20,120 nt of DNA from a virus: the IMG/VR virus record IMGVR_UViG_3300025960_000024, positions 1 to 20,120 of that record. One strand, 5' to 3'. Position 1 is the stretch's first letter. The number at the start of each line of letters is the position of its first letter. The notes under the pieces are model-generated. The model had not been told where the DNA came from. It saw only the letters and a list, made by a program, of their open reading frames with translations, and did no database searches. Positions 1,267 to 20,120 of the stretch are shown one piece after another. The position numbers and the translations under genes are program-made.

Positions 1267-1480
1267 ATTGGCTCGGCGCATTGGCTGTCCGCATAGTACA
1301 CTGCGCGACGCACTATCAATGTTCGACCGCGACCCCCGCAGCGGCTTCCCAAAAAAACAACCATTGTTCGGGGGCCGGCGCTACTGGCCGGCTGTACGTG
1401 ATTATTTCGACAAACTGAACGGAGTTCATAGAGGGCAACATGACAAAAACGGACAAGCGAAAGCCGCCGAAAGTAGATAG
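1235..1480 (+). CDS. Excisionase-like winged-helix DNA-binding protein
   Basis: This 81-aa protein begins LYLTDTELARRIGCPHSTLR, a helix-turn-helix of the MerR/AlpA/excisionase type. It continues with a wing-like segment rich in Gly, Pro and Lys and the ending QPLFGGRRYWPAVRDYFDK. I know this arrangement from small excisionase-like proteins encoded beside integrases in alphaproteobacterial phages. Such proteins bend DNA at the attachment site and push integrase toward excision. The ATG at 1235 is chosen over an in-frame TTG at 1217 because GGAG (1223-1226) lies 8 bases upstream of it. Its 3' end overlaps the integrase start by 41 bases, so the two are probably translated together. It could instead be a transcription regulator, but its position argues for excisionase. 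Confidence 0.7.
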   Translation: MDEPLYLTDTELARRIGCPHSTLRDALSMFDRDPRSGFPKKQPLFGGRRYWPAVRDYFDKLNGVHRGQHDKNGQAKAAESR

Positions 1481-2723
1481 CGCACCGGGGCTGACGTGGC
1501 GGGAGTTGAAGACGGGATGGGAAGCGCGCTGGCAGGCGAGATCGGACATCGCCAAAAAAGGCTTCAAGCCGACAGTGCAGCGCATTTGGTTCGGCGATAA
1601 TCCGACGCCGACAGAGTGCCTATGGATCGCGACGCGATGCCAGGCTCTACAGAGTGAAATGCTAGTGTGGTCGCGTGGCGGATTGCCGCCAGCACCTGAG
1701 AAAAAACCAACCTCGTTGACAGAACTAATCGAGGTGTACCGCGAGCACCGCCACAGCCCATATCTGAAACTGCGGCATCGCACCCGGCAAGTCTACAATA
1801 GCCGCCTTCGCATCATCGGGCGCGACCATGGCAATGAGTTGGTCTCCGACATCAAAGGGACCGACCTGATTGATTGGTATCAGACCTGGGTTGGCCCCAG
1901 AGTACAGTTGCCCCGCGCCTACTATCTGGTGGCGATGCTGCGTTCGCTGTTTGCTTTCGGCCACGGCATTCTGGAAGACGCGGAGTGTGCGCGCCTCTCG
2001 GCCGTTCTGGGCAAGCAGCGTTACCTTGGTGGCACCGGCGAACGAGAGGAACGGCTGACCGCCGAGCAGGTCACCACCCTCCGAGCGATGGCGCACCGGG
2101 CCGAGCGTCCCTCAATTGCGCTCGCTCAGGCGTTCCAGTTTGAGCTCGCGTTGCGCCAGAAAGACGTCGTTGGGGAGTGGGCTCCAGTGCGGGAGCCTGG
2201 CACCTCCGACATTGTCTACGGCCAGTCCAAATGGCTGTACGGCATCCGGTGGTCGGAGATCGACCAGTCTATGACCATCCGCCACTACACCAGCAAGAAG
2301 GACAAGCTGGTTGAGGCGAGCTTGTGGGGAGCCCCGATGGTGGTGGAGGAACTGGACCGGCTGACCGGCGGTCGGTTCAAGAGCGTTGGTCGCGCCGCGC
2401 TTCCCGCTGCCGGTCCTATCATCGTTAATGAACTCACCGGACGACCCTACAATGACCAGACCTTCCGCGACCACTGGCGGCGCCTGGCCGATGACTGCGG
2501 CATCCCCAAGGACGTCTGGAACATGGACAGCCGGGCGGGGGCGATTAGCGAGGCGACGGAGGCCGGCGCACCCATAGATCATGCGCGCGCATTCGCCACC
2601 CACAGCAAGGAAACGCAGACGGTGAAGTACACCCGCGCGAATAAAGCCAAGGTGGATAACGTGATGAAGTTCCGCGTCGATCACCGGCAGAAGAAGCTCG
2701 CGAACGTTACAGAAACAGAATGA
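1440..2723 (+). CDS. int: Tyrosine recombinase / phage integrase
   Basis: This 427-aa protein has the usual length for a phage integrase and would recombine attP with a chromosomal attB. The N-terminal part (about 1-190) contains the arm-binding and core-binding regions (TSLTELIEVYREHRHSPY starts the SAM-like domain). The catalytic domain follows from about 205. Visible catalytic residues are Arg239 (ALRQKD), Lys286 or Lys287 (TSKKDK), Arg365 (MDSRAG), His388 (ATHSK) and the nucleophile Tyr397 (KYTR). The first His of the HxxR box is replaced by Met362, an exchange I believe occurs in a rhizobial-type integrase subgroup. AGGG (1432-1435) lies 4 bases before the ATG. The gene points into the 178-bp gap that should hold attP. 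The domain call is secure; the integration target cannot be told from here. Confidence 0.93.
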   Translation: MTKTDKRKPPKVDSAPGLTWRELKTGWEARWQARSDIAKKGFKPTVQRIWFGDNPTPTECLWIATRCQALQSEMLVWSRGGLPPAPEKKPTSLTELIEVYREHRHSPYLKLRHRTRQVYNSRLRIIGRDHGNELVSDIKGTDLIDWYQTWVGPRVQLPRAYYLVAMLRSLFAFGHGILEDAECARLSAVLGKQRYLGGTGEREERLTAEQVTTLRAMAHRAERPSIALAQAFQFELALRQKDVVGEWAPVREPGTSDIVYGQSKWLYGIRWSEIDQSMTIRHYTSKKDKLVEASLWGAPMVVEELDRLTGGRFKSVGRAALPAAGPIIVNELTGRPYNDQTFRDHWRRLADDCGIPKDVWNMDSRAGAISEATEAGAPIDHARAFATHSKETQTVKYTRANKAKVDNVMKFRVDHRQKKLANVTETE

Positions 2724-4527: not shown

Positions 4528-7053
4528 TCAGATGTATTCTGTGATGATGACAAAACCCGCCGAGCCTGCTCCACCAGCGGCCTTGGTTGCGGTGCCTCCA
4601 GACACAGCGCCGGCACCACCAGAGCCGTAATTGGATGCGGCACCGCCAGCTGTGGCCGCTGCGGAAGTGGCCGCCGCCCCCAACCCACCCCCACCAAAGA
4701 AGCTGGAACCCCCATTACCACCAACGGTATTGCTGCCGGAGCCGGTATTGCTACCACTGTTCCCTGGCTCACCCGCTGCTATTATATCGCCGACCGCACC
4801 AGTAACGCTGCCACCGGCACCACCACTCCACGCCGAGGCAGATGCTTGGCCAATTCCGCCATTGCCACCGTTGGCAGCACAGATAGCTGTTGCAAAATTT
4901 ACTCCGACAAATGTTTGCCCACCATTACCTCCGTTGCCGGAAGACCCCGCTACGCCGGCAGTTCCAGCCGCGCCGATTGTCACGTTCTTACTGACACCGA
5001 TTGTCGCAGCCGGAACCGTTATGCGCGAATAGCCGCCTGAGCCGCCGCCCCCTAATCCTGTACTGCCACCCGTGCTATCGCCACTAGCGCCACCACCACC
5101 ACCACCACCGACCAGTTCAATCGTGCAGAACTTCATGCCAGCAGTGGGCGTATAGGTATTTGCGCCTACGGTAGTAAACTTTTGAATGGCAATGGTGCTA
5201 AAGCCGCCACCACTAGCACTCGCCGCCAGCGTGGTGCCGGTCATGGTCAGGCCGGTGCCGAGTGTTATCTCCTGCGGATCGCCCGAGCCGCTATCACCGC
5301 GTCCAATCAGCAGCGACGCCGCCGACACGTTCTGCATCTTGGCGTAGGTGACGGCATCGTTGGCAATCGTCGTCGCCAGCGCACCGGAAACCGATGTCAC
5401 GTCGCCGGTCAGAGTGGGGAAGCTCGCCGCCTGAATAACGCCCGTTGCTGCCGCCGTCTTGGACAGATCAATCGCGCCAAAGGCCAACGCAGTACCGGCA
5501 CCGTTGATGCGGAGAACCTGGTCGGTCGTGCCCTGGATGCTCGCAACATCGGCGGTCGCATTGGCGGTGACGCCGAGCACACTGCGGGCGCTGCCCTGCG
5601 CCAATGCGCTAAACGGCAGATCGCCCGTGGTGGCGTTGGCACTCGCAAGATCGAGCGCGCCCCACGCATATGTGGACGCTCCGGTAACGCGGAGCACTTG
5701 CCCGACAGTCGAGCTATTGGCAATGCCAGTGACAGCGCCGGTGCCGTTGCCTTGCATCAGCCCGGTAATGGTGCCGACGCCCAGGCCACCGCGCGCGACC
5801 GCCAGTGTGCCGGTCCACCCAAGCGTGAGAGACACGGCACTGTAGAGCGCAGCTGCGGGCGTGCCGCCCAATGTCAGCGTGACATTGGTGTCGTCGGCCT
5901 TGGTGAGATCGCCTGACCCGATGATCGTCTTGGCATTAGCGCCGGTCAGTTCCTCTGTGCTGCCAGCCCCGGCGGTGATGCGACCGAGAAATCTATTGGT
6001 GACCGATACGTTCTGTATCTTGCTGTAGGTGATGACCGCCGGACGAACGGTCCAGATCGTTCCTGACCCACTGACCGCAATATCAGTGTATGTGCCGTCA
6101 GGAGGAAGCGAGCCGCCGCCGCCACCCGTTGCCGTTGCCTTGACCTGACCGGGCGTCGTGAAATCCCAAATTACGGTCGCCGTGTTTGTAAGCACGCGCT
6201 CGTTAGTCAGGGTGCCATCGAGGGCGGCAACAACATACTCCGCACCTGTCGGCGCACCGCCACTGGCCGGCGTGGCCCACGTTCCGTCTGCGCGTAGAAA
6301 GTTTGCGGTGCCGCCGCCGGACGCGGGTGCAACACCTTGCAGCGCGCTCGTAAACGGATTGAGCAGAGTTGTTGCCTGCGTCCCCGTCAGTTCCTCGGGA
6401 TCGCCAGCGCCTGCGGTGACGCGACCAATAAAGCGCGCGGTCGCACTGACGTTCTGCATCTTGGCGTAGGTGACAACGTCATTGTCGATTGTCCAAGTAG
6501 CACCACTACCAGTGACAGTGATGTCGCCCTTATCGCCGTCACTGACGCCGGTTGCCGTCGCCGACAGCGTGCCACCACTGAATGATAGTCCGGTGGAAAC
6601 AACCACCGGCGACCATGTATTGGCCGCCGAGCGGTAATAGATCGTATTGGTGCCGGTCAGCGCCGCAAGCGCGGTCAGGTCGCCATCGAGCGGCTGCACT
6701 GCTGCCCAGGCCGCATTCAAGCGGCCGTAGGTGGTGCCGTCGCTCGGCGCGTCAGGAATGCCGCCGCTGCCGGCTTGCGCGTCTACATACTGCTTGGTCG
6801 CGGCGTGCAGCGGCGCTGTCGGATTGGCGTTGAGCGTGAGAAAGCCGGACATGACGTCGCCGGTGCGATCCACCTTGTTGGCGGTGGCGGCGACAGCTGT
6901 ATCGGCGGCGGTTTGCGCTTGTTGCGCAGCGGCGAGGGCAACCGCCGCAGCCGCTGCGGCATTGCTTCCCGGAATGGCCGGCAAGAATTGTAGCTTGAGC
7001 GCCTGCGGCATCGTCAGCTTGAGCCGCAGGGTCGGATATGCGGTGAGGCTCAT
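4528..7053 (-). CDS. Tail fibre protein with internal repeats and glycine-rich C-terminal tip
   Basis: This 841-aa protein is the probable host-recognition fibre. After a short N-terminal segment there is an Ala/Gln-rich helix (about 30-60, likely a trimeric coiled coil), then a fibre motif (NPTAPLHAATKQYVD). Long repetitive Ser/Thr/Gly/Ala beta-structured stretches follow. Three 47-residue repeats are recognisable at 177-223, 324-370 and 551-597, sharing a (V/I)TY(A/S)K(M/I)QNVS core and mostly a GDPEELT-like ending. From about 645 to 830 the chain is extremely rich in glycine (GGGGGGGASG, GGNGGNGG-like runs) and ends GFVIITEYI. That is the pattern of phage fibre-tip glycine-rich domains thought to form packed polyglycine sandwiches that contact the receptor. 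The start overlaps the upstream 117-aa gene as ATGA. The fibre role is strongly supported; the receptor is unknown. Confidence 0.85.
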   Translation of the reverse strand: MSLTAYPTLRLKLTMPQALKLQFLPAIPGSNAAAAAAVALAAAQQAQTAADTAVAATANKVDRTGDVMSGFLTLNANPTAPLHAATKQYVDAQAGSGGIPDAPSDGTTYGRLNAAWAAVQPLDGDLTALAALTGTNTIYYRSAANTWSPVVVSTGLSFSGGTLSATATGVSDGDKGDITVTGSGATWTIDNDVVTYAKMQNVSATARFIGRVTAGAGDPEELTGTQATTLLNPFTSALQGVAPASGGGTANFLRADGTWATPASGGAPTGAEYVVAALDGTLTNERVLTNTATVIWDFTTPGQVKATATGGGGGSLPPDGTYTDIAVSGSGTIWTVRPAVITYSKIQNVSVTNRFLGRITAGAGSTEELTGANAKTIIGSGDLTKADDTNVTLTLGGTPAAALYSAVSLTLGWTGTLAVARGGLGVGTITGLMQGNGTGAVTGIANSSTVGQVLRVTGASTYAWGALDLASANATTGDLPFSALAQGSARSVLGVTANATADVASIQGTTDQVLRINGAGTALAFGAIDLSKTAAATGVIQAASFPTLTGDVTSVSGALATTIANDAVTYAKMQNVSAASLLIGRGDSGSGDPQEITLGTGLTMTGTTLAASASGGGFSTIAIQKFTTVGANTYTPTAGMKFCTIELVGGGGGGGASGDSTGGSTGLGGGGSGGYSRITVPAATIGVSKNVTIGAAGTAGVAGSSGNGGNGGQTFVGVNFATAICAANGGNGGIGQASASAWSGGAGGSVTGAVGDIIAAGEPGNSGSNTGSGSNTVGGNGGSSFFGGGGLGAAATSAAATAGGAASNYGSGGAGAVSGGTATKAAGGAGSAGFVIITEYI
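5263..5403 (-). repeat. Fibre 47-aa repeat, copy 3
   Basis: Residues 551-597 of the tail fibre, including VTYAKMQNVSAASLLIGRGD and GDPQEIT. The middle is diverged (GRGDSGSGDP replaces GRVTAGAGDP), but the TYAKMQNVSA core is identical to copy 1, down to a shared 26-base DNA run. Confidence 0.78.
5944..6084 (-). repeat. Fibre 47-aa repeat, copy 2
   Basis: Residues 324-370 of the tail fibre, including ITYSKIQNVSVTNRFLGRIT and AGAGSTEELT. It is closest to copy 1 at the protein level (FIGRVTAGAG against FLGRITAGAG). Confidence 0.8.
6385..6525 (-). repeat. Fibre 47-aa repeat, copy 1
   Basis: Residues 177-223 of the tail fibre. Shares with copies 2 and 3 the pattern D(I/V)T-SG-----T(I/V)-----V(T/I)TY(A/S)K(M/I)QNVS. 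A 26-base identical DNA segment (about 6447-6472) recurs in copy 3, suggesting recent duplication or gene conversion. Confidence 0.8.
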
Positions 7054-7403
7054 GCCGCAACCACTCCATCCACTACAGGCAGCTGGCCGGCAAACAACTG
7101 ATAGGTCACGCCGTCCGCGAGCTTTACGGTGATACCGATATCGAGATCGCCGGGAGCGAAGCGCACCATTTCAGCGCGGTTGAACCGCACGTCGAACACG
7201 CCGAGACCAACGACGGTGACATGGCCGTCCAGATTGGTGCCGCTGATTGCGGGCAACGACTGCGACGACGGCCGCAGCGCGACCGTGATTGTGGACCCGG
7301 TGAGATTGACGTTGTCGTTGGTCACGGGGTCAATCAGGTTGACCTGGAACAACAGGTCCGCGCGATTGCTCGCCGCCGCGATGTGTCCGGTGTAGAACGG
7401 CAT
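7050..7403 (-). CDS. Small beta-rich tail-associated protein
   Basis: This 117-aa protein has alternating beta-strand patterns (DLLFQVNLIDPVTNDNVNLT, STITVALRP, HVTVVGLGVFDVRF, LDIGITVKLADGVTYQLFAG) ending LPVVDGVV. This is the style of a small Ig-like or BppU-type domain encoded just before tail fibres in many phages, where it may link the fibre to the tail or act as a base for it. It lacks a signal peptide and membrane segment. The ATG at 7403 lies about 15 bases after the T-run of a Rho-independent terminator. A weak GGGA precedes it. Its stop overlaps the fibre start (ATGA), so the two form a pair. The function is inferred from position; I do not recognise a named family with certainty. 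Confidence 0.65.
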   Translation of the reverse strand: MPFYTGHIAAASNRADLLFQVNLIDPVTNDNVNLTGSTITVALRPSSQSLPAISGTNLDGHVTVVGLGVFDVRFNRAEMVRFAPGDLDIGITVKLADGVTYQLFAGQLPVVDGVVAA

Positions 7404-7417
7404 CAGGTTTTCCCAAT

Positions 7418-7442
7418 AAAAAAGCCGCCCCGGAGGGCGGCT
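7418..7442 (-). terminator. Rho-independent terminator after the collar-protein gene
   Basis: On the minus strand an 8-bp perfect stem (AGCCGCCC with GGGCGGCT, 7442-7435 and 7430-7423) closes a TCCG loop and is followed by a run of T (7423-7418) and ATTGGGA. It lies 22 bases after the collar stop and 15 bases before the next start, so it separates the virion genes from the fibre/lysis genes. Confidence 0.85.
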
Positions 7443-7464
7443 GTCAGGCGAGATGTCAGAATTT

Positions 7465-8571
7465 CTACAGTTTGATGTAGATCGTCATCACTAGCGCCGG
7501 GGCCATGGTGCGGTGTGCTGTGCCCGAGCCCTGTGATGAGGTCGTGAACGGGCTGCTTGCGAATGAGTGAGTGTGATTTGAGCTCATACCCCCGGTTGGC
7601 CCGGAGATCGTCACCTGATGGGTGTGGTCGTTGCTCTCGCCGCTGGTCGCATTAACGACGCCGGGAGCAATGACACCACCGCCGCCCGTCGCGGAGCCTT
7701 GTCCACTGCTTCCGTACAGATGGGTGTGGCTTGCGCTCACGCCGCCAGTCGTGAATGTTCCCTGCTGCGCGTGGGTGTGATCGGTCCCGGTCTGATCGGT
7801 CGTGCCTGACGCGGTGCCGGTGTGCGTGTGCGCTGGCATGTTTGCCAGGGAAAGAGTGGTGGCTTCGTTGCCGCCAACGTTGCCAAGCACAATGCCCGAT
7901 GAGCCAAAGAACGCGGACGTCAGCCGGCTCGCGGCCGTAGCCCCCATGTCGTCCATACCGGCGATCACGCGACCGCGCAAATCAGGAAGGATCATCCGCT
8001 TTAGATCAATAAAATCCTGATGGGCATTTGCGCCCTTCGATGCACTCTGCAACGTGATGTTCGGAAATGCCCAGAGATATTCAAACAGCGCTTGCGCTAA
8101 CGTCGTATCGGCCAACTCATTTGCGCCCGATCCCGTTGCGCCAATGGTGTTGCCGTTACAACGAACAAACCCAGTTCGCGTTTGGTTGTCATATCTGACT
8201 TTAATATCGCCGGTTTGCAGCACGGTCGTCGCATCAACGGCGCCGCCGCCACCACCACCACCACTCGCCGGGCCGATAATCAACAGCTGGTCAGCCGCGA
8301 GGATGGTAACGCCGGCCTTGTCAGTGAGCCTGATCTTGATCTGACCGCTGGCATTGCCCTCGGCTAATGTTGAGGCGAGATAGAACATCGGTATGCGCCC
8401 GCTGGCGTCGAGCACAACCGGGTTTGGCCACAGGATCGTGAGCCCGCTGTCCTGGAAGGCGTTCTGCGGCGTGGTAGAGCCGGCGGCGAAGAAATATAAA
8501 AAGCCGCCCGAAAGCGGCTCTCCATCCATATCGAATTGCTGACTGAGTGCGAGATTGATTGTGCCTGCCAT
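7465..8571 (-). CDS. Tail collar-domain protein with histidine repeats (short tail fibre or needle-like)
   Basis: This 368-aa protein has an N-terminal domain (about 5-105) beginning INLALSQQFDMDGEPLSGGFL, with ASGRIPMFYL further on. It is reminiscent of head- or tail-binding domains at the start of podovirus tailspikes. A polyglycine hinge (about 104-110) follows. The middle (about 165-245) contains PDLRGRVIAGMDDMGATAAS and GGNEATTLSLANMPAHTH, the signature of the phage tail collar domain. The C-terminal part carries five His-Thr-His motifs at residues 248, 265, 282, 316 and 333, spaced 17, 17, 34 and 17 residues apart. Such HxH motifs bind iron along the axis of trimeric phage fibres and needles. 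The start touches the upstream stop directly (TAG then ATG). A terminator-like hairpin lies within the first codons. The exact virion position (fibre, needle or tip) is inferred. Confidence 0.8.
   Translation of the reverse strand: MAGTINLALSQQFDMDGEPLSGGFLYFFAAGSTTPQNAFQDSGLTILWPNPVVLDASGRIPMFYLASTLAEGNASGQIKIRLTDKAGVTILAADQLLIIGPASGGGGGGGAVDATTVLQTGDIKVRYDNQTRTGFVRCNGNTIGATGSGANELADTTLAQALFEYLWAFPNITLQSASKGANAHQDFIDLKRMILPDLRGRVIAGMDDMGATAASRLTSAFFGSSGIVLGNVGGNEATTLSLANMPAHTHTGTASGTTDQTGTDHTHAQQGTFTTGGVSASHTHLYGSSGQGSATGGGGVIAPGVVNATSGESNDHTHQVTISGPTGGMSSNHTHSFASSPFTTSSQGSGTAHRTMAPALVMTIYIKL
7567..7830 (-). repeat. 17-residue-period His-Thr-His repeat region
   Basis: Encodes residues 248-335 of the collar protein. 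HTH occurs at 248-250, 265-267, 282-284, 316-318 and 333-335. The gaps are 17, 17, 34 and 17 residues, so one position (about 299) has lost its motif. The segments between are Gly/Ser/Thr-rich and not identical, so the period is conserved but the sequence is not. Confidence 0.85.
8498..8519 (-). terminator. Terminator-like hairpin inside the collar gene
   Basis: On the minus strand AGCCGC (8519-8514) pairs with GCGGCT (8507-8502) around a 6-base loop, and a short T-run follows (8502-8498, then ATATTTC). It lies about 52 bases after the collar start codon, inside codons for EPLSGGFLYFF. It could act as a weak attenuator, or be a by-product of the codons used. Confidence 0.4.
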
Positions 8572-15712: not shown

Positions 15713-17011
15713 TTACTGGGCTGGATTGCCGAGCGTGGAGGCGCCGCCGGTCATGCGGACAGCCATGCGGTTGTCTATCGTCTTGACGCCATAGAGGACG
15801 TCGAAACGATAGTTCGAGACGTCGTTGGTGCCGTCGTAGTACGGGATCAGACGAGCGCTGATGCCCTTGTAGGTTTCGCGCGCAACATCAACGGCGCCAG
15901 GCGGCTTCACCATCGGAACCACAACCAACGCGAATGCGTTTTTGTGGAACATCAGGTTCTGCCGGTAGTTCTGGCTGTCGCCGCCGACCACCTGAATGGT
16001 GGCGCCGGCACCGGCCGCGATGTTGGTGGTGCCGAACGCCGCGTCCGCCGTGATCGGGATAATGGGCGGCGTGATCGACAAGGTGGCTGCACCACCTACG
16101 GCGGTCACGTCGGCCAACACCGTGAACATCTGTTGGAACGGCAGGATGGCCTTGGTCACTGGATTGACCGCGAGCACAGCGGTCGCGCCGGTGCCGATGG
16201 TGAACACCGTACCGGCCCGGATCAGGTCGGTGGTGCCCCACGCGCCCGTCACCAGGTTCATGGTGCCAGGCACTGCTTCGGTGTCTCTCACCGCCGCGTA
16301 GGTCGTGGATTGTGCGCCGGTGACGGTGGCCGCGTCGTCGTTGGCCGCAGTGCCGAGATAGGTCGGCACGTTCTGCGACATGTAGGTGGCGACGCCGCCG
16401 ATCTCGCCGATCTCACCCCGGCGATAGGCTGCCTGACCGATCTGCGGGAGGAACAGGCCGGTCTGCGAGGTGGCCATCGCCCAATAGCTTTCGGGCGCGA
16501 GCACGGCCGAGCGCATGTCTTGCGGCACGGCCATCTGGTCGAGCCGCTCGGCACCACGCGCGAACATGGCAAACGACGAGATCGGCGCGTCGGCGCCGGT
16601 CGCGGGTTGGCCCACCCAGTTCGGGATGCGGTAGAATTCCGCCATCACATCAACGTCGATCTGATTGGCGAGGCGCACCATGGCCGGGCGAATGACGCGC
16701 TCGGACAGGTCTTCGATCTTGAGCGTCAGGTCGCGGCTGGAGAACGAAAAATCGACGCCCTTTTGCTGGTTGACCACCAGGGAGAGCTTGCCTTCCTGGA
16801 CGTCTTGCAGCACCGCCACTGCCGTTTGCCGCACCGAGAATTGCTGCGGCTTGCGGATGGAGATGGTGTCGCCGATTTCGTAGCCATTGACCTTCTTGTC
16901 GAACTCTTCCTCGTAGCCGCGATAGACGCGGCTCGCCATGACGAGCTCGTTTTCGAGAATACGCACCGCCGTAGAGGCGATGATTGATGGATTAAGGACG
17001 GTGTTGGGCAC
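15713..17011 (-). CDS. Major capsid (coat) protein, P22 gp5 family
   Basis: This is the main shell protein, 432 aa from the GTG at 17011 (P22 coat: 430 aa). The start was chosen because AAAGG (17020-17024) lies 8 bases upstream and because relatives begin M(A/P)NTxLNPxIIAxxALRILEN; here the sequence is PNTVLNPSIIASTAVRILEN. An upstream in-frame GTG at 17050 has no ribosome site. Other blocks typical of the family are IGDTISIRKPQQFSVR, FSSRDLTLKIEDLSERVIRP, DQMAVPQDMRSAVLAPESYW, AVNPVTKAILPFQQMFTVLA, YRQNLMFHKNAFALVVVP and YRFDVLYGVKTIDNRMAVR. The fold is expected to be HK97-like with an inserted domain. It directly follows the scaffold gene, as in P22. The assignment is firm at the family level. 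Confidence 0.93.
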   Translation of the reverse strand: MPNTVLNPSIIASTAVRILENELVMASRVYRGYEEEFDKKVNGYEIGDTISIRKPQQFSVRQTAVAVLQDVQEGKLSLVVNQQKGVDFSFSSRDLTLKIEDLSERVIRPAMVRLANQIDVDVMAEFYRIPNWVGQPATGADAPISSFAMFARGAERLDQMAVPQDMRSAVLAPESYWAMATSQTGLFLPQIGQAAYRRGEIGEIGGVATYMSQNVPTYLGTAANDDAATVTGAQSTTYAAVRDTEAVPGTMNLVTGAWGTTDLIRAGTVFTIGTGATAVLAVNPVTKAILPFQQMFTVLADVTAVGGAATLSITPPIIPITADAAFGTTNIAAGAGATIQVVGGDSQNYRQNLMFHKNAFALVVVPMVKPPGAVDVARETYKGISARLIPYYDGTNDVSNYRFDVLYGVKTIDNRMAVRMTGGASTLGNPAQ

Positions 17012-17019
17012 TGCCGTAA

Positions 17020-17024
17020 CCTTT
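17020..17024 (-). promoter_or_regulatory. Ribosome binding site supporting the GTG start of the coat gene
   Basis: AAAGG on the minus strand, 8 bases before the GTG at 17011. No comparable site precedes the alternative GTG at 17050. Confidence 0.6.
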
Positions 17025-17056
17025 CGGCTGCGGCTCGCACCCGATGACACACGCTG

Positions 17057-17965
17057 TTAGGCGCGGTCGCCGTAGAGCTTTTTGATGTAGGCGTCTCTGG
17101 CGGCCGTTTGTGATTGTGGACGGGTGCCACTACCCTTGAGCGGAGCAATCGGCTTGCGAGCCTGTGTTTGCTGGGGTTTTTGCGGCCGAGACAGTTTTCC
17201 CTCGATGCGTCCGAGCTCGCGCGCCACTTCCTCGGGATTGGAATGGTTTAGGCGCGTGAGCAGTGCTTGATCTTTGGCAAGCACCAATCCGATGTGATGC
17301 GACTTGTTGCTGTGCAGGATCAGCCGTTCGACGTGCGGGGCGACCCGGACCGTGGCTTTCGCCATGATCGCGTCGTAGTCCTTGATTTGCGTCTTGAACT
17401 TGGCCACGCGCGCCTTGTGATCGGCGACTAGTTCGACCATGCGGTTTTGTTCGGTTTCGACCGCCTGGACGAATTGCTTTTTCACCTCGCGCGTCACCAC
17501 CCGTTTCTCGGACAGGTACGCCTGCATTTCGCGCTCAAAGCCGATGTAGTCGCCCTTGAAATCAGCTTCCTTGGGCGGCTCGCCGATTTCCTGCTGCACG
17601 CGATGTTCAATCGCGCGCACCAAGGCCGCGTCGTCTTGAGGAAGGCTGCCGTTGCTGGAACGGCTGCGCAGTGCCTCGTTCTCGGCCTTTAGGCGTTCGG
17701 CTTGGCGTTTGTAGCGCTCGTTACGGGAGGCTTTCTTGCGCTTTGGCTCATCGCCATCGTCGCTGTCATCCTCGTCGTCGTCTACATCATCATCGTCGGA
17801 GGTATCGTCGTCGGCGTCCTGGTCGGACGCCTCCGCTTCTGTCTCGGTATCACCCTCGGGCTCATCGCCTTCGGGCTCGGTGTCCGCTTCCGGCTCCGGC
17901 TTGTCGGCTGGCGCTCCGTCAGAGGCTGGCGCTGACTGTTTCGGATCGTCGTCGTCTACCTGCAT
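17057..17965 (-). CDS. Capsid scaffolding protein, P22 gp8-like
   Basis: This 302-aa protein is almost the same length as P22 scaffold (303 aa) and lies directly before the coat gene. Scaffold guides coat assembly, then leaves the procapsid. Residues 1-80 are extremely acidic (runs of Asp/Glu such as DDDTSDDDDVDDDEDDSDDG). A basic patch follows (KRKKASRNERYKRQAERL), then a long helical middle region, and a short basic end (AARDAYIKKLYGDRA) like the coat-binding tail of scaffolds. The ATG at 17965 is chosen because GGAG (17972-17975) lies 6 bases upstream. A longer in-frame start at 18013 would run through a terminator hairpin and is unlikely. Sequence identity with P22 gp8 cannot be claimed; order, size and charge pattern are the support. 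Confidence 0.82.
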   Translation of the reverse strand: MQVDDDDPKQSAPASDGAPADKPEPEADTEPEGDEPEGDTETEAEASDQDADDDTSDDDDVDDDEDDSDDGDEPKRKKASRNERYKRQAERLKAENEALRSRSSNGSLPQDDAALVRAIEHRVQQEIGEPPKEADFKGDYIGFEREMQAYLSEKRVVTREVKKQFVQAVETEQNRMVELVADHKARVAKFKTQIKDYDAIMAKATVRVAPHVERLILHSNKSHHIGLVLAKDQALLTRLNHSNPEEVARELGRIEGKLSRPQKPQQTQARKPIAPLKGSGTRPQSQTAARDAYIKKLYGDRA

Positions 17966-17977: not shown

Positions 17978-18000
17978 TAAAAAAACCGCCCGAAGGCGGC
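17978..18000 (-). terminator. Rho-independent terminator after the adhesin gene
   Basis: On the minus strand GCCGCC (18000-17995) pairs with GGCGGT (17990-17985, ending in a G-T wobble) around a very stable TTCG loop, followed by seven T (17985-17979). It lies about 55 bases after the adhesin stop and 13 bases before the scaffold start. The sequence after the hairpin (TTTTTTTATTGGAGA) closely resembles that after the terminator at 7418-7442. Confidence 0.87.
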
Positions 18001-18002
18001 TT

Positions 18003-18038
18003 GCGTCATCCAAGCGGCTGCCGCGTCATGCGGCTGCC
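18003..18038. repeat. Two short imperfect direct repeats
   Basis: GCGTCATCCAAGCGGCTGCC at 18003-18022 and GCGTCATGCGGCTGCC at 18023-18038 are adjacent copies differing by a 4-base insertion and a nearby change. They lie in the spacer between the adhesin stop and the terminator. Probably a small tandem duplication; no function is apparent. Confidence 0.6.
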
Positions 18039-18054
18039 TGCTGTGGAAAGGGGT

Positions 18055-20120
18055 TTATGGGGCGGGTTTCAGCCCAATGAGATATGAGGTCCAGGCACCG
18101 CCGAATGCGCTGTTGTTTGTGTGTGATTTGTCGCCAGTGGCACCCGCCAAAGCCAGCGTCCCATCGGCGATGTACATCAAGACCTGATCGACGCGTTCTG
18201 TGAACGTTGGCGTTGTTCCGGTCGGCGGCACGGTGTCGGCGGTGTTATCGGCCCAATCCGTTTCGGTAAAAACAATGAAGGTGTTGGCAACAGTGGTTGT
18301 GAAACCCAGTGCGGTTGATATCGTGCCGGTCCCGGTATTTGTTGTTGGTGTGGGACTGAATGGAGTAGCTATGTCTACTCCGGTGTAACGCATGACGACG
18401 CCGCAGGACGATCCGCCGGCAGGGTGTGTGAACAAATAATCACCGCTCTCCGACGAGGCAATTTTGTAGAAGATGCTGAATTTAACGAAAAAGCCCGCAA
18501 CAGTAGCTTGGATGGGTGAGCCCGGAAGCGTGCTCCAACCACCTGGCGGGGTTGGCGTCGTTGGGCTGCTGCTCTGACCAACAGCCAGATAGGCGATAAG
18601 CAAATCGTTGTTGGCAATACCGGCTGGCGCAGCCAGGGTGGAGTTGGTTCGCGCGGCATAATTCAGATAGGTGCCAGCACTGCCAAAAGAGACAGTTGGG
18701 CCGCTACCGCCAGTGCTTCCGTCAAAAGGTGAACCTGCGTTCGGGCCATCGGCCCAATTGTTGTCTGACCTGACGTTGCCTGTCGTTCCCCATACGGGTT
18801 GGGATGGATGTATTGCTCCGTTCGAGCCGCCATTCGGGTAGAACAGCGTCGTCATCCTATTCCCGGTCATCTTCATGTTCTGTGCCGCCGGTCCCCCGGC
18901 ATAGATGCAGTAACCGGTGCCGCCGATATAATTATTCTCCATCTTGTAGCCGAGCGATCCGTCCCGGTTAGTGCCGGTGCCGGGATAGCTGCCGAAGTCG
19001 TTGAAGAATGCAATGCAATCGGTTTGCTCAATGACATTGCCATCTTCATCAGGCGTTGCGATCACTATGTTGTTGCGCAAGACCAAGGCATTTGTCTCGC
19101 CACCGTTGAAGGCAATGCCATTGAGATGAAAACCCGGATTAAACAACGACAATTTTGAAATATAATTTTCGGTCACTTCGTTGTTGGCTGGCAAATTCAT
19201 CTGCACGCCGGTCGTCGTGTAAGAGACGTAATTGCGATAGATGATTGACGAAGGAGCGTGACTGATCTTTATCGGAACTTCATTGCTATCCGCAGAGTGG
19301 CCGCTCAAGCCACCCAAGTCGCAAAAGAAGACATGAAGGTTTCCGGTGTTGTCGGATTGAGTGTTGAAAAAGCCGGGAGCAGTGCTCGGACCTCGGAACC
19401 GACAACCCCGGAATAGGTATGAATTACCTGTATTGAGAAGAAAGCCACCTTGTGAGAAATCCTTGAATTGAAGCACACGGGTTCCAGCCGGGATGAAGTA
19501 GCCGTCGATGGTCAATCCGCCTGCTGGAACAATTCCGCCTCGATTGGTGACGGTGTTGTTATAGACATACGTTCCGGGTTCGATGAATGTGGCCTCGTTG
19601 TCGGCCCGCCAATTGCCACCGCCAGGCGGTGTGATGACTTGCAGATTGGCAGGGTATCCCGCGCTTCCGAGCAGCGCAGTCGGCCCGACATTCACTCCGG
19701 CTGATCCTTGTGGGATTAGCTGACTGCCGTGGGTGATGCTACCGGCCGTGGTAAATGTCACGATGTTATCGGTACTGGTAGACGCCGAGTTTGCATTGCC
19801 TGCAAGGTCCGTCACCACTGTCGCCGGGATGGTTGCCACCACGTCGCCGTCTCCGGTCATGCCGGTCACGGCAACATTGTAGGTCGGCCCGCTGCCGGTC
19901 ACTGCCGCTGCCAGCGTGCCCGCTGCCGTGCTGCCGGCGAAGCTGACATCGCTGCTGGTGAAGCCGATGACTGCCTCGCTGAAGACAATGGTAAAATTTA
20001 TCGGCGCCGTAGTTGCGGGATCGGCTTGGCCGGCGGCCTTGTTGATAGTCACGCTCGGCGCGGTAGCGTCGAACATGACGGTGGCTGACATGGATGCGGG
20101 GGATGGAGCGCCCGTCGCAT
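18055..20120 (-). CDS. Ig-like / beta-helix adhesin or tailspike-like surface protein (5' end outside window)
   Basis: The frame is open to the right edge. The first ATG (20091) has no ribosome site and falls just before a domain whose usual beginning is upstream, so the protein is probably longer. Numbering from that ATG: residues about 10-115 are a bacterial Ig-like domain (APSVTINKAAGQADPATTAP, INFTIVFSEAV, TYNVAVTGMTGDGDVVATIP, VTDLAGNA). Residues about 150-470 are a right-handed beta-helix of the pectate-lyase/tailspike sort, with short repeats ending in Asn/Asp (YRNYVSY, TENYISK, LRNNIVIA, MENNYIG, MTGNRMT). Residues about 485-678 form a beta-sandwich (NDLLIAYLAVG, PPGGWSTLPG, FYKIASSESGDYLFTHPAG, VMRYTGVDIATPF) like terminal domains of many surface proteins. 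Such proteins bind or degrade cell-surface sugars. It ends before a strong terminator, upstream of the scaffold gene, an unusual place. Catalytic residues are not identified. Confidence 0.75.
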   Translation of the reverse strand, partial: ATGAPSPASMSATVMFDATAPSVTINKAAGQADPATTAPINFTIVFSEAVIGFTSSDVSFAGSTAAGTLAAAVTGSGPTYNVAVTGMTGDGDVVATIPATVVTDLAGNANSASTSTDNIVTFTTAGSITHGSQLIPQGSAGVNVGPTALLGSAGYPANLQVITPPGGGNWRADNEATFIEPGTYVYNNTVTNRGGIVPAGGLTIDGYFIPAGTRVLQFKDFSQGGFLLNTGNSYLFRGCRFRGPSTAPGFFNTQSDNTGNLHVFFCDLGGLSGHSADSNEVPIKISHAPSSIIYRNYVSYTTTGVQMNLPANNEVTENYISKLSLFNPGFHLNGIAFNGGETNALVLRNNIVIATPDEDGNVIEQTDCIAFFNDFGSYPGTGTNRDGSLGYKMENNYIGGTGYCIYAGGPAAQNMKMTGNRMTTLFYPNGGSNGAIHPSQPVWGTTGNVRSDNNWADGPNAGSPFDGSTGGSGPTVSFGSAGTYLNYAARTNSTLAAPAGIANNDLLIAYLAVGQSSSPTTPTPPGGWSTLPGSPIQATVAGFFVKFSIFYKIASSESGDYLFTHPAGGSSCGVVMRYTGVDIATPFSPTPTTNTGTGTISTALGFTTTVANTFIVFTETDWADNTADTVPPTGTTPTFTERVDQVLMYIADGTLALAGATGDKSHTNNSAFGGAWTSYLIGLKPAP

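Follow-up and report, generated by a model that had tools for sequence, protein, structure and literature searches.

A portal-scaffold slot of variable content carries candidate adhesion cassettes in temperate P22-coat podoviruses

Accessory adhesion devices on phage and phage-like heads are among the closest described systems to the locus discussed here. The head spikes of the gene transfer agent RcGTA bind capsule (PMC7296036, PMC10218006), and the head fibre of this particle has a Leu/Gly-rich N-terminus (PMC7296036). Ig-type adhesins on phage heads are exemplified by Hoc, pb10 and N4 gp17 (PMC7602432). Here we describe a gene located next to the scaffold gene of a virus from soil, known from a 20,120-bp IMG/VR record that was analysed as a whole and is referred to as the window. 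We consider it probable that this gene belongs to an exchangeable adhesion cassette as one of its alleles, that it occupies a slot between portal and scaffold in temperate podoviruses with a P22-type coat, and that its product is a late virion fibre acting as an accessory receptor binder.

Read leftward on the minus strand from its right end, the window encodes the adhesin ORF, a hairpin with a T run, the scaffold and coat proteins, an Hc3 head-closure protein and more structural proteins, followed further along by a tail fibre module and an endolysin (Table 1). The major capsid protein (MCP) of the P22 coat family and the adjacent scaffold gene identify a P22-coat podovirus, and named relatives are mostly alphaproteobacterial prophages with a coat identity of 47-58%. 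The phage is temperate, since it encodes an integrase, alongside which a RecT-like annealing protein is found at 28-570. Another contig, L003 (IMGVR_UViG_3300005364_000015, 32,272 bp), represents the same phage (99.994% identity over 16,954 bp) and extends the window on the downstream side to 32 kb, but its sequence starts within the coat gene and does not include the adhesin. The missing 5' end of the window and the portal gene were found neither in L003 nor in portal-based contigs. The first-pass annotation had presumed a portal region beyond the adhesin; the window itself contains no portal gene, and its position upstream is deduced from the relatives.

Table 1. Features of the window and the basis of their assignment.
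Feature	Position	Strand	Basis or remark
Integrase	1440-2723	+	phrog_1
Tail fibre module	4528-8571		
Major capsid protein, P22 coat family	15713..17050	-	Pfam P22_CoatProtein PF11651, E 3.7e-47
Head scaffolding protein	17057..17965	-	PHROG phrog_8865, E 2.8e-30; ATG start at 17965
Recombination edge	17980..18050		identity to L002 0.53-0.75 (adhesin) vs 0.97-1.00 (scaffold, coat)
Terminator-like hairpin and T run, scaffold leader	17983..18002	-	
Adhesin ORF, 687 aa, 5' end cut off by contig end	18055..20118	-	open reading frame
C-terminal all-beta module, ~210 aa	18058..18690	-	homologues and low-confidence model
Middle module, swappable, probable right-handed beta-helix	18721..19743	-	weak similarity to L002 middle and low-confidence model
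Ig-like domain, Pfam Big_12	19765..20070 (aa 17-118)	-	E 4.4e-9, above cut-off

Alignment to full-length relatives (L009, L025, L026) indicates that the adhesin ORF lacks about 115-125 N-terminal residues, which comprise a short anchor and most of the first Ig domain. The Big_12 domain corresponds to the second of at least two Ig domains in these relatives and confirms the Ig-like part of the architecture that the first-pass annotation had proposed, namely Ig-like plus beta-helix plus beta-sandwich. It is also the best-modelled part of the protein (core pLDDT of about 70-85), in a structure model that reached a pLDDT of 32.6 from the single sequence and 46.9 from eight sequences, the latter being usable in the Ig and partial C-terminal regions only. 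The beta-helix was recovered in the sister allele of contig L002, the middle of which scores above the cut-off as Pfam Beta_helix. In the window allele, the middle module has no close relative in the viral collection, no Pfam match and no significant family or fold match; it shares 23% identity with the L002 middle (E 1e-3), and profile comparison between them is weak. Judged from this similarity and the low-confidence model, it probably folds as a right-handed beta-helix as well. Homologues of the C-terminal module with 64-65% identity occur in L002 and in L107, where the module terminates a protein of 1190 aa. The 211 residues of the window module, proposed to be a beta-sandwich, are all-beta in the low-confidence model and have no fold match. 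For the adhesin as a whole, no PHROG or NCBIfam model matched, a scan of the viral collection and tblastn in cultured phages returned no relatives, and a PDB sequence search gave nothing credible; in Foldseek searches with the model, no PDB match had an E-value below 0.09 and the viral matches were all of low TM score. No known tailspike N-terminal domain or catalytic family was detected with Pfam, PHROG and NCBIfam.

The part that is cut off in the window can be read in five full-length relatives (L009, L025, L026, L013 and L015). In the junctions read, the start codon of the adhesin gene (TTG or GTG) overlaps the portal stop codon by 8 nt and is preceded by a purine-rich ribosome-binding site. 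The protein begins with a charged anchor of 25-30 residues (ADxxxxYLRxLEEEY-type), followed by Ig domains in two or three copies. A profile of this anchor finds slot Ig proteins only (E 1e-14 to 1e-16) and the anchor has no match among known capsid- and tail-binding domains, nor do the charged N-termini contain a clear signal peptide. A Leu-Gly repeat N-terminus is absent from these Ig adhesins, and the slots of L009, L025, L026 and L015 encode no base protein of the Rcc01079 family. Behind the Ig array the proteins diverge: L009 continues with two beta-helix-like stretches and differs in its C-terminus, and L025 has another pair, while in L026, L013 and L136 the protein ends after the Ig array and separate genes follow, the next one in L026 encoding a pectate-lyase-like protein.

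Replacement of the cassette is most evident from sister contig L002 (4,022 bp). Its scaffold protein is identical from the ATG on and its coat protein 98% identical to that of the window, whereas its slot protein follows the same plan (Ig, beta-helix, C-terminal module) with an overall identity of only ~40%. The drop in identity spans ~70 bp and coincides with the hairpin and the stop codon of the adhesin gene. Synonymous divergence (dS) between the two is 0.03 for scaffold and 0.05 for MCP, but 1.72 for the adhesin C-terminus; this difference indicates that the cassette was replaced by recombination and did not evolve fast in place. Against the unrelated long-tailed phage L107, the C-terminus has a dS of 1.48, close to the value between window and L002. 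Over the adhesin alleles dN is 0.24-0.32 at a dS of 1.2-1.7, and such an excess of synonymous change implies that they are kept functional by purifying selection. The L107 gene (3070-6642) encodes repeated beta-helix-like stretches before ending in the C-terminal module of the window, and it lies just upstream of the head-tail adaptor gene, so that a related adhesin is present in another head region; neighbours in L107 and L108 are the head-tail adaptor, major tail protein and tape measure genes.

Coat searches yielded 80 viral loci and 16 genome loci, with some prophages represented twice, by a copy from each of two collections. The gene order of the clade is terminase, portal, slot, scaffold, MCP. 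With an empty slot defined as a portal-scaffold gap under 300 bp, 43 of the 80 classified loci were empty, 10 contained an Ig-adhesin and 27 something else, so the gene is far from universal among relatives. On the coat-protein tree, at least 16 changes between empty and occupied are required, 10 of which are forced by well-supported branches; the Ig state needs 4, with L015 entered as Ig from its reading frame (its automatic label was 'other'). Ig-adhesins cluster in one clade of 28 rows that also contains empty slots (L005, L006, L008, L018, L020, L021, L023). The 3-kb insert of L009 is lacking in L023 at 80-83% identity on both flanks, and L005 and L006 have no adhesin gene at 79% coat identity. 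Together with the cultured relatives Rhodoferax P26218, Xanthomonas PBR31 and Thalassomonas BA3 (portal and scaffold genes unnamed in the last and assigned by position and size), in which portal adjoins scaffold, these pairs bear out the earlier proposal of an insertion between the two genes. Loci L013 and L015 are 97% identical over 4.7 kb from about the hairpin onward and have identical coat proteins, yet their slots differ; their scaffold dS of 0.30 exceeds the MCP dS of 0, from which it follows that exchange in this region is mosaic and did not involve one clean block. Conversely, the Ig proteins of L013 and L026 are nearly the same (dS 0.04), although their coats have diverged (dS 0.79). 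These two loci form a gene-by-gene mosaic, with a dS of 0.43 for the gene after the Ig protein and 0.15 for scaffold. At the level of sequence, the slot is variable and its modules are swapped.

The first-pass annotation also regarded the cassette as closed off by a strong terminator, which did not hold. Of 85 scaffold leaders, 51 contain a GC hairpin with a T run, and in almost every case it lies 15-24 nt ahead of the scaffold ATG. The hairpin occurs at 27 of the 43 empty slots and at all nine loci that carried the label Ig in the leader scan. Among 32 distinct hairpin sequences, 98.7% of cells in the five outer pairs were paired, both-sided changes occurred in four pairs, and the covariation score was reached by none of 500 shuffles. 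Its presence before scaffold at empty slots as well marks the hairpin as a conserved backbone element that belongs to the scaffold leader; a role as cassette boundary is ruled out. There is no room for a promoter between hairpin and scaffold, which implies that the hairpin is read through or acts as an attenuator or protector of the mRNA 5' end; attenuator, antitermination target and mRNA protector are all possible roles. This also bears on the proposed moron status of the gene. It does qualify as an inserted gene that close relatives lack at this junction (L009 versus L023, and the 43 empty loci), but in the strict sense it is not a moron, because the terminator is not its own, its start codon in relatives overlaps with the stop codon of portal, and a promoter scan restricted to the sigma-70 type found 2 sites where 1.5 were expected, which is chance level.

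Other occupants of the slot include known types of adhesion proteins. An 80-90-aa gene is found in L079, L122 and L066, scoring in the first two as 'spike base protein, Rcc01079 family' (NF048002), and a profile of the group retrieves from the PDB the base of the RcGTA head spike (E 9e-8); L115 also has a spike-base homologue. In L079, L122 and L066 the base is followed by a fibre with a Leu/Gly-rich N-terminus (LGLG-type), which in L079 ends in a GDSL esterase. These pairs lie in podovirus-like prophages or contigs (L079 7358-9044, L122 7993-9049, L066 7264-8545). Pectate-lyase-like spikes are encoded in L026 and L073 and an esterase-family protein in L125, and the slot proteins of L010 and L073 match the tail spike family phrog_2234. 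These occupants suggest that the slot repeatedly receives surface-binding or surface-modifying devices. Some other slots carry small genes without an assigned role (L029, L032, L034/L035). In L042/L116 (7093-8958), the slot contains a 132-aa gene similar to 'Tail wing arm, gp31' (PDB 9d93, E 1.4e-6) and, after it, a gene for a 487-aa protein that belongs to no family. Two of the loci with such other devices are prophages of Mesorhizobium sp. Root157 (L116) and M. wenxiniae (L122). Further spike-base genes lie upstream of terminase and hence outside the slot (L052, L061, L062, L076/L128), which means that the slot is not the sole adhesion locus.

The architecture of the protein and the genes that replace it in the slot support a predicted adhesin or receptor-binding role; location in the virion, glycan binding and a function in adsorption are inferred. 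The cassette would be expressed late with the head genes, by translational coupling to portal as read in relatives. Its product would form a virion fibre with a short charged N-terminal anchor, two or three Ig spacers, a beta-helix and a C-terminal beta module, the last two of which may contact a glycan on the host surface, and it would thus provide a second, accessory receptor binder beside the tail fibre. Homologous recombination could act at the conserved flanks, where the 3' end of portal and the Ig array face the hairpin and scaffold leader across the exchanged part, and would swap either the distal modules or the whole cassette, so that a different surface is recognised.

The protein could instead be attached to the tail, as a second tailspike or depolymerase that is anchored on the portal or tail machine and cleaves capsule or O-antigen. 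Beta-helices and pectate-lyase-like occupants are typical of tailspikes, the matches to phrog_2234 and the 'tail wing arm' resemblance in L042 point the same way, and coupling to the portal gene would suit tail stoichiometry. However, the anchor has no homology to tailspike head-binding domains, the window allele contains no catalytic motif or enzyme family, a tail fibre module is already encoded elsewhere in the window, and the slot is part of the head module, where some clade members place RcGTA-type head-spike bases. We therefore consider a tail-attached depolymerase rather unlikely. On the location as such, locus and head-spike occupants tip the balance slightly towards the head. Enzymatic cleavage is conceivable, but nothing in the window allele supports it.

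An expression from the prophage, with display on the surface of the lysogenic host, would be compatible with a temperate phage and with an architecture of Ig domains and beta-helix that is also common in bacterial surface proteins. Such a lysogenic-conversion moron would, however, be expected to differ from what was found, namely promoters at chance level, a start that overlaps the portal stop, charged N-termini without clear signal peptide in the full-length relatives, and a terminator that is not the cassette's own; it seems very improbable. Confinement of Ig-adhesins to one clade of the coat tree might suggest a fixed structural gene of this lineage and no cassette at all, which is contradicted by the empty slots inside that clade and by module replacement between near-identical genomes and can hardly be upheld. 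Finally, the contig breaks off within an ORF, in an Ig array whose counterparts in relatives are repetitive, as might be seen in an assembly chimera or at a junction with host chromosome. Synteny excludes such an origin for all practical purposes: the gene order of the window recurs in the independent contigs L002, L009, L025, L026 and others, and the C-terminal module has no relative in 84,980 bacterial and archaeal species genomes at the sensitivity used.

If the proposed exchangeable cassette is correct, these phages, probably of soil alphaproteobacteria, have a defined socket for exchange of accessory surface-binding modules. Natural swap pairs on near-identical backbones would then allow the contributions of accessory adhesin and tail fibre to adsorption and host range to be compared, and gene-transfer-agent head spikes would be linked to a podovirus locus. 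A small open-access literature search gave no description of a portal-scaffold slot, which is weak evidence of novelty. It is conceivable, though we lean slightly to the doubtful side, that the portal-scaffold junction of alphaproteobacterial P22-coat podoviruses is dedicated to the exchange of head-borne adhesion devices, with base-plus-fibre spikes of the GTA type, esterase fibres and single-chain spikes of anchor, Ig domains and beta-helix as unrelated solutions that replace each other, and that the window represents a new, self-anchoring class of head spike.

Among known systems, one that resembles the locus is the RcGTA head spike (base Rcc01079/GhsA and fibre Rcc01080/GhsB), an accessory capsule-binding device of alphaproteobacterial particles, homologues of whose base occupy the slot of L066, L079, L115 and L122. 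The full-length Ig relatives differ from it in being a single chain of anchor, Ig domains and beta-helix, without base gene and LGLG-type peptide. With T4 Hoc, T5 pb10 and N4 gp17 they share Ig-like repeats, an accessory nature and a link to surface adhesion (PMC7602432), but no sequence homology was found, the slot Ig proteins carry large swapped distal modules, and their location on the head is presumptive. Modular tailspikes and depolymerases, such as the receptor-binding proteins of Klebsiella phages (PMC8262889), likewise combine an anchor with an exchangeable distal specificity module, whereas the window gene lies between portal and scaffold and has no recognisable head-binding domain or enzymatic family. 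In gut-phage Ig-like modular adhesins, too, sequence variation alters surface targeting (PMC13370021); those are BACON and PKD types that bind epithelium, whereas the adhesins described here are of the Big_12 type, belong to soil phages and most likely target bacterial surfaces.
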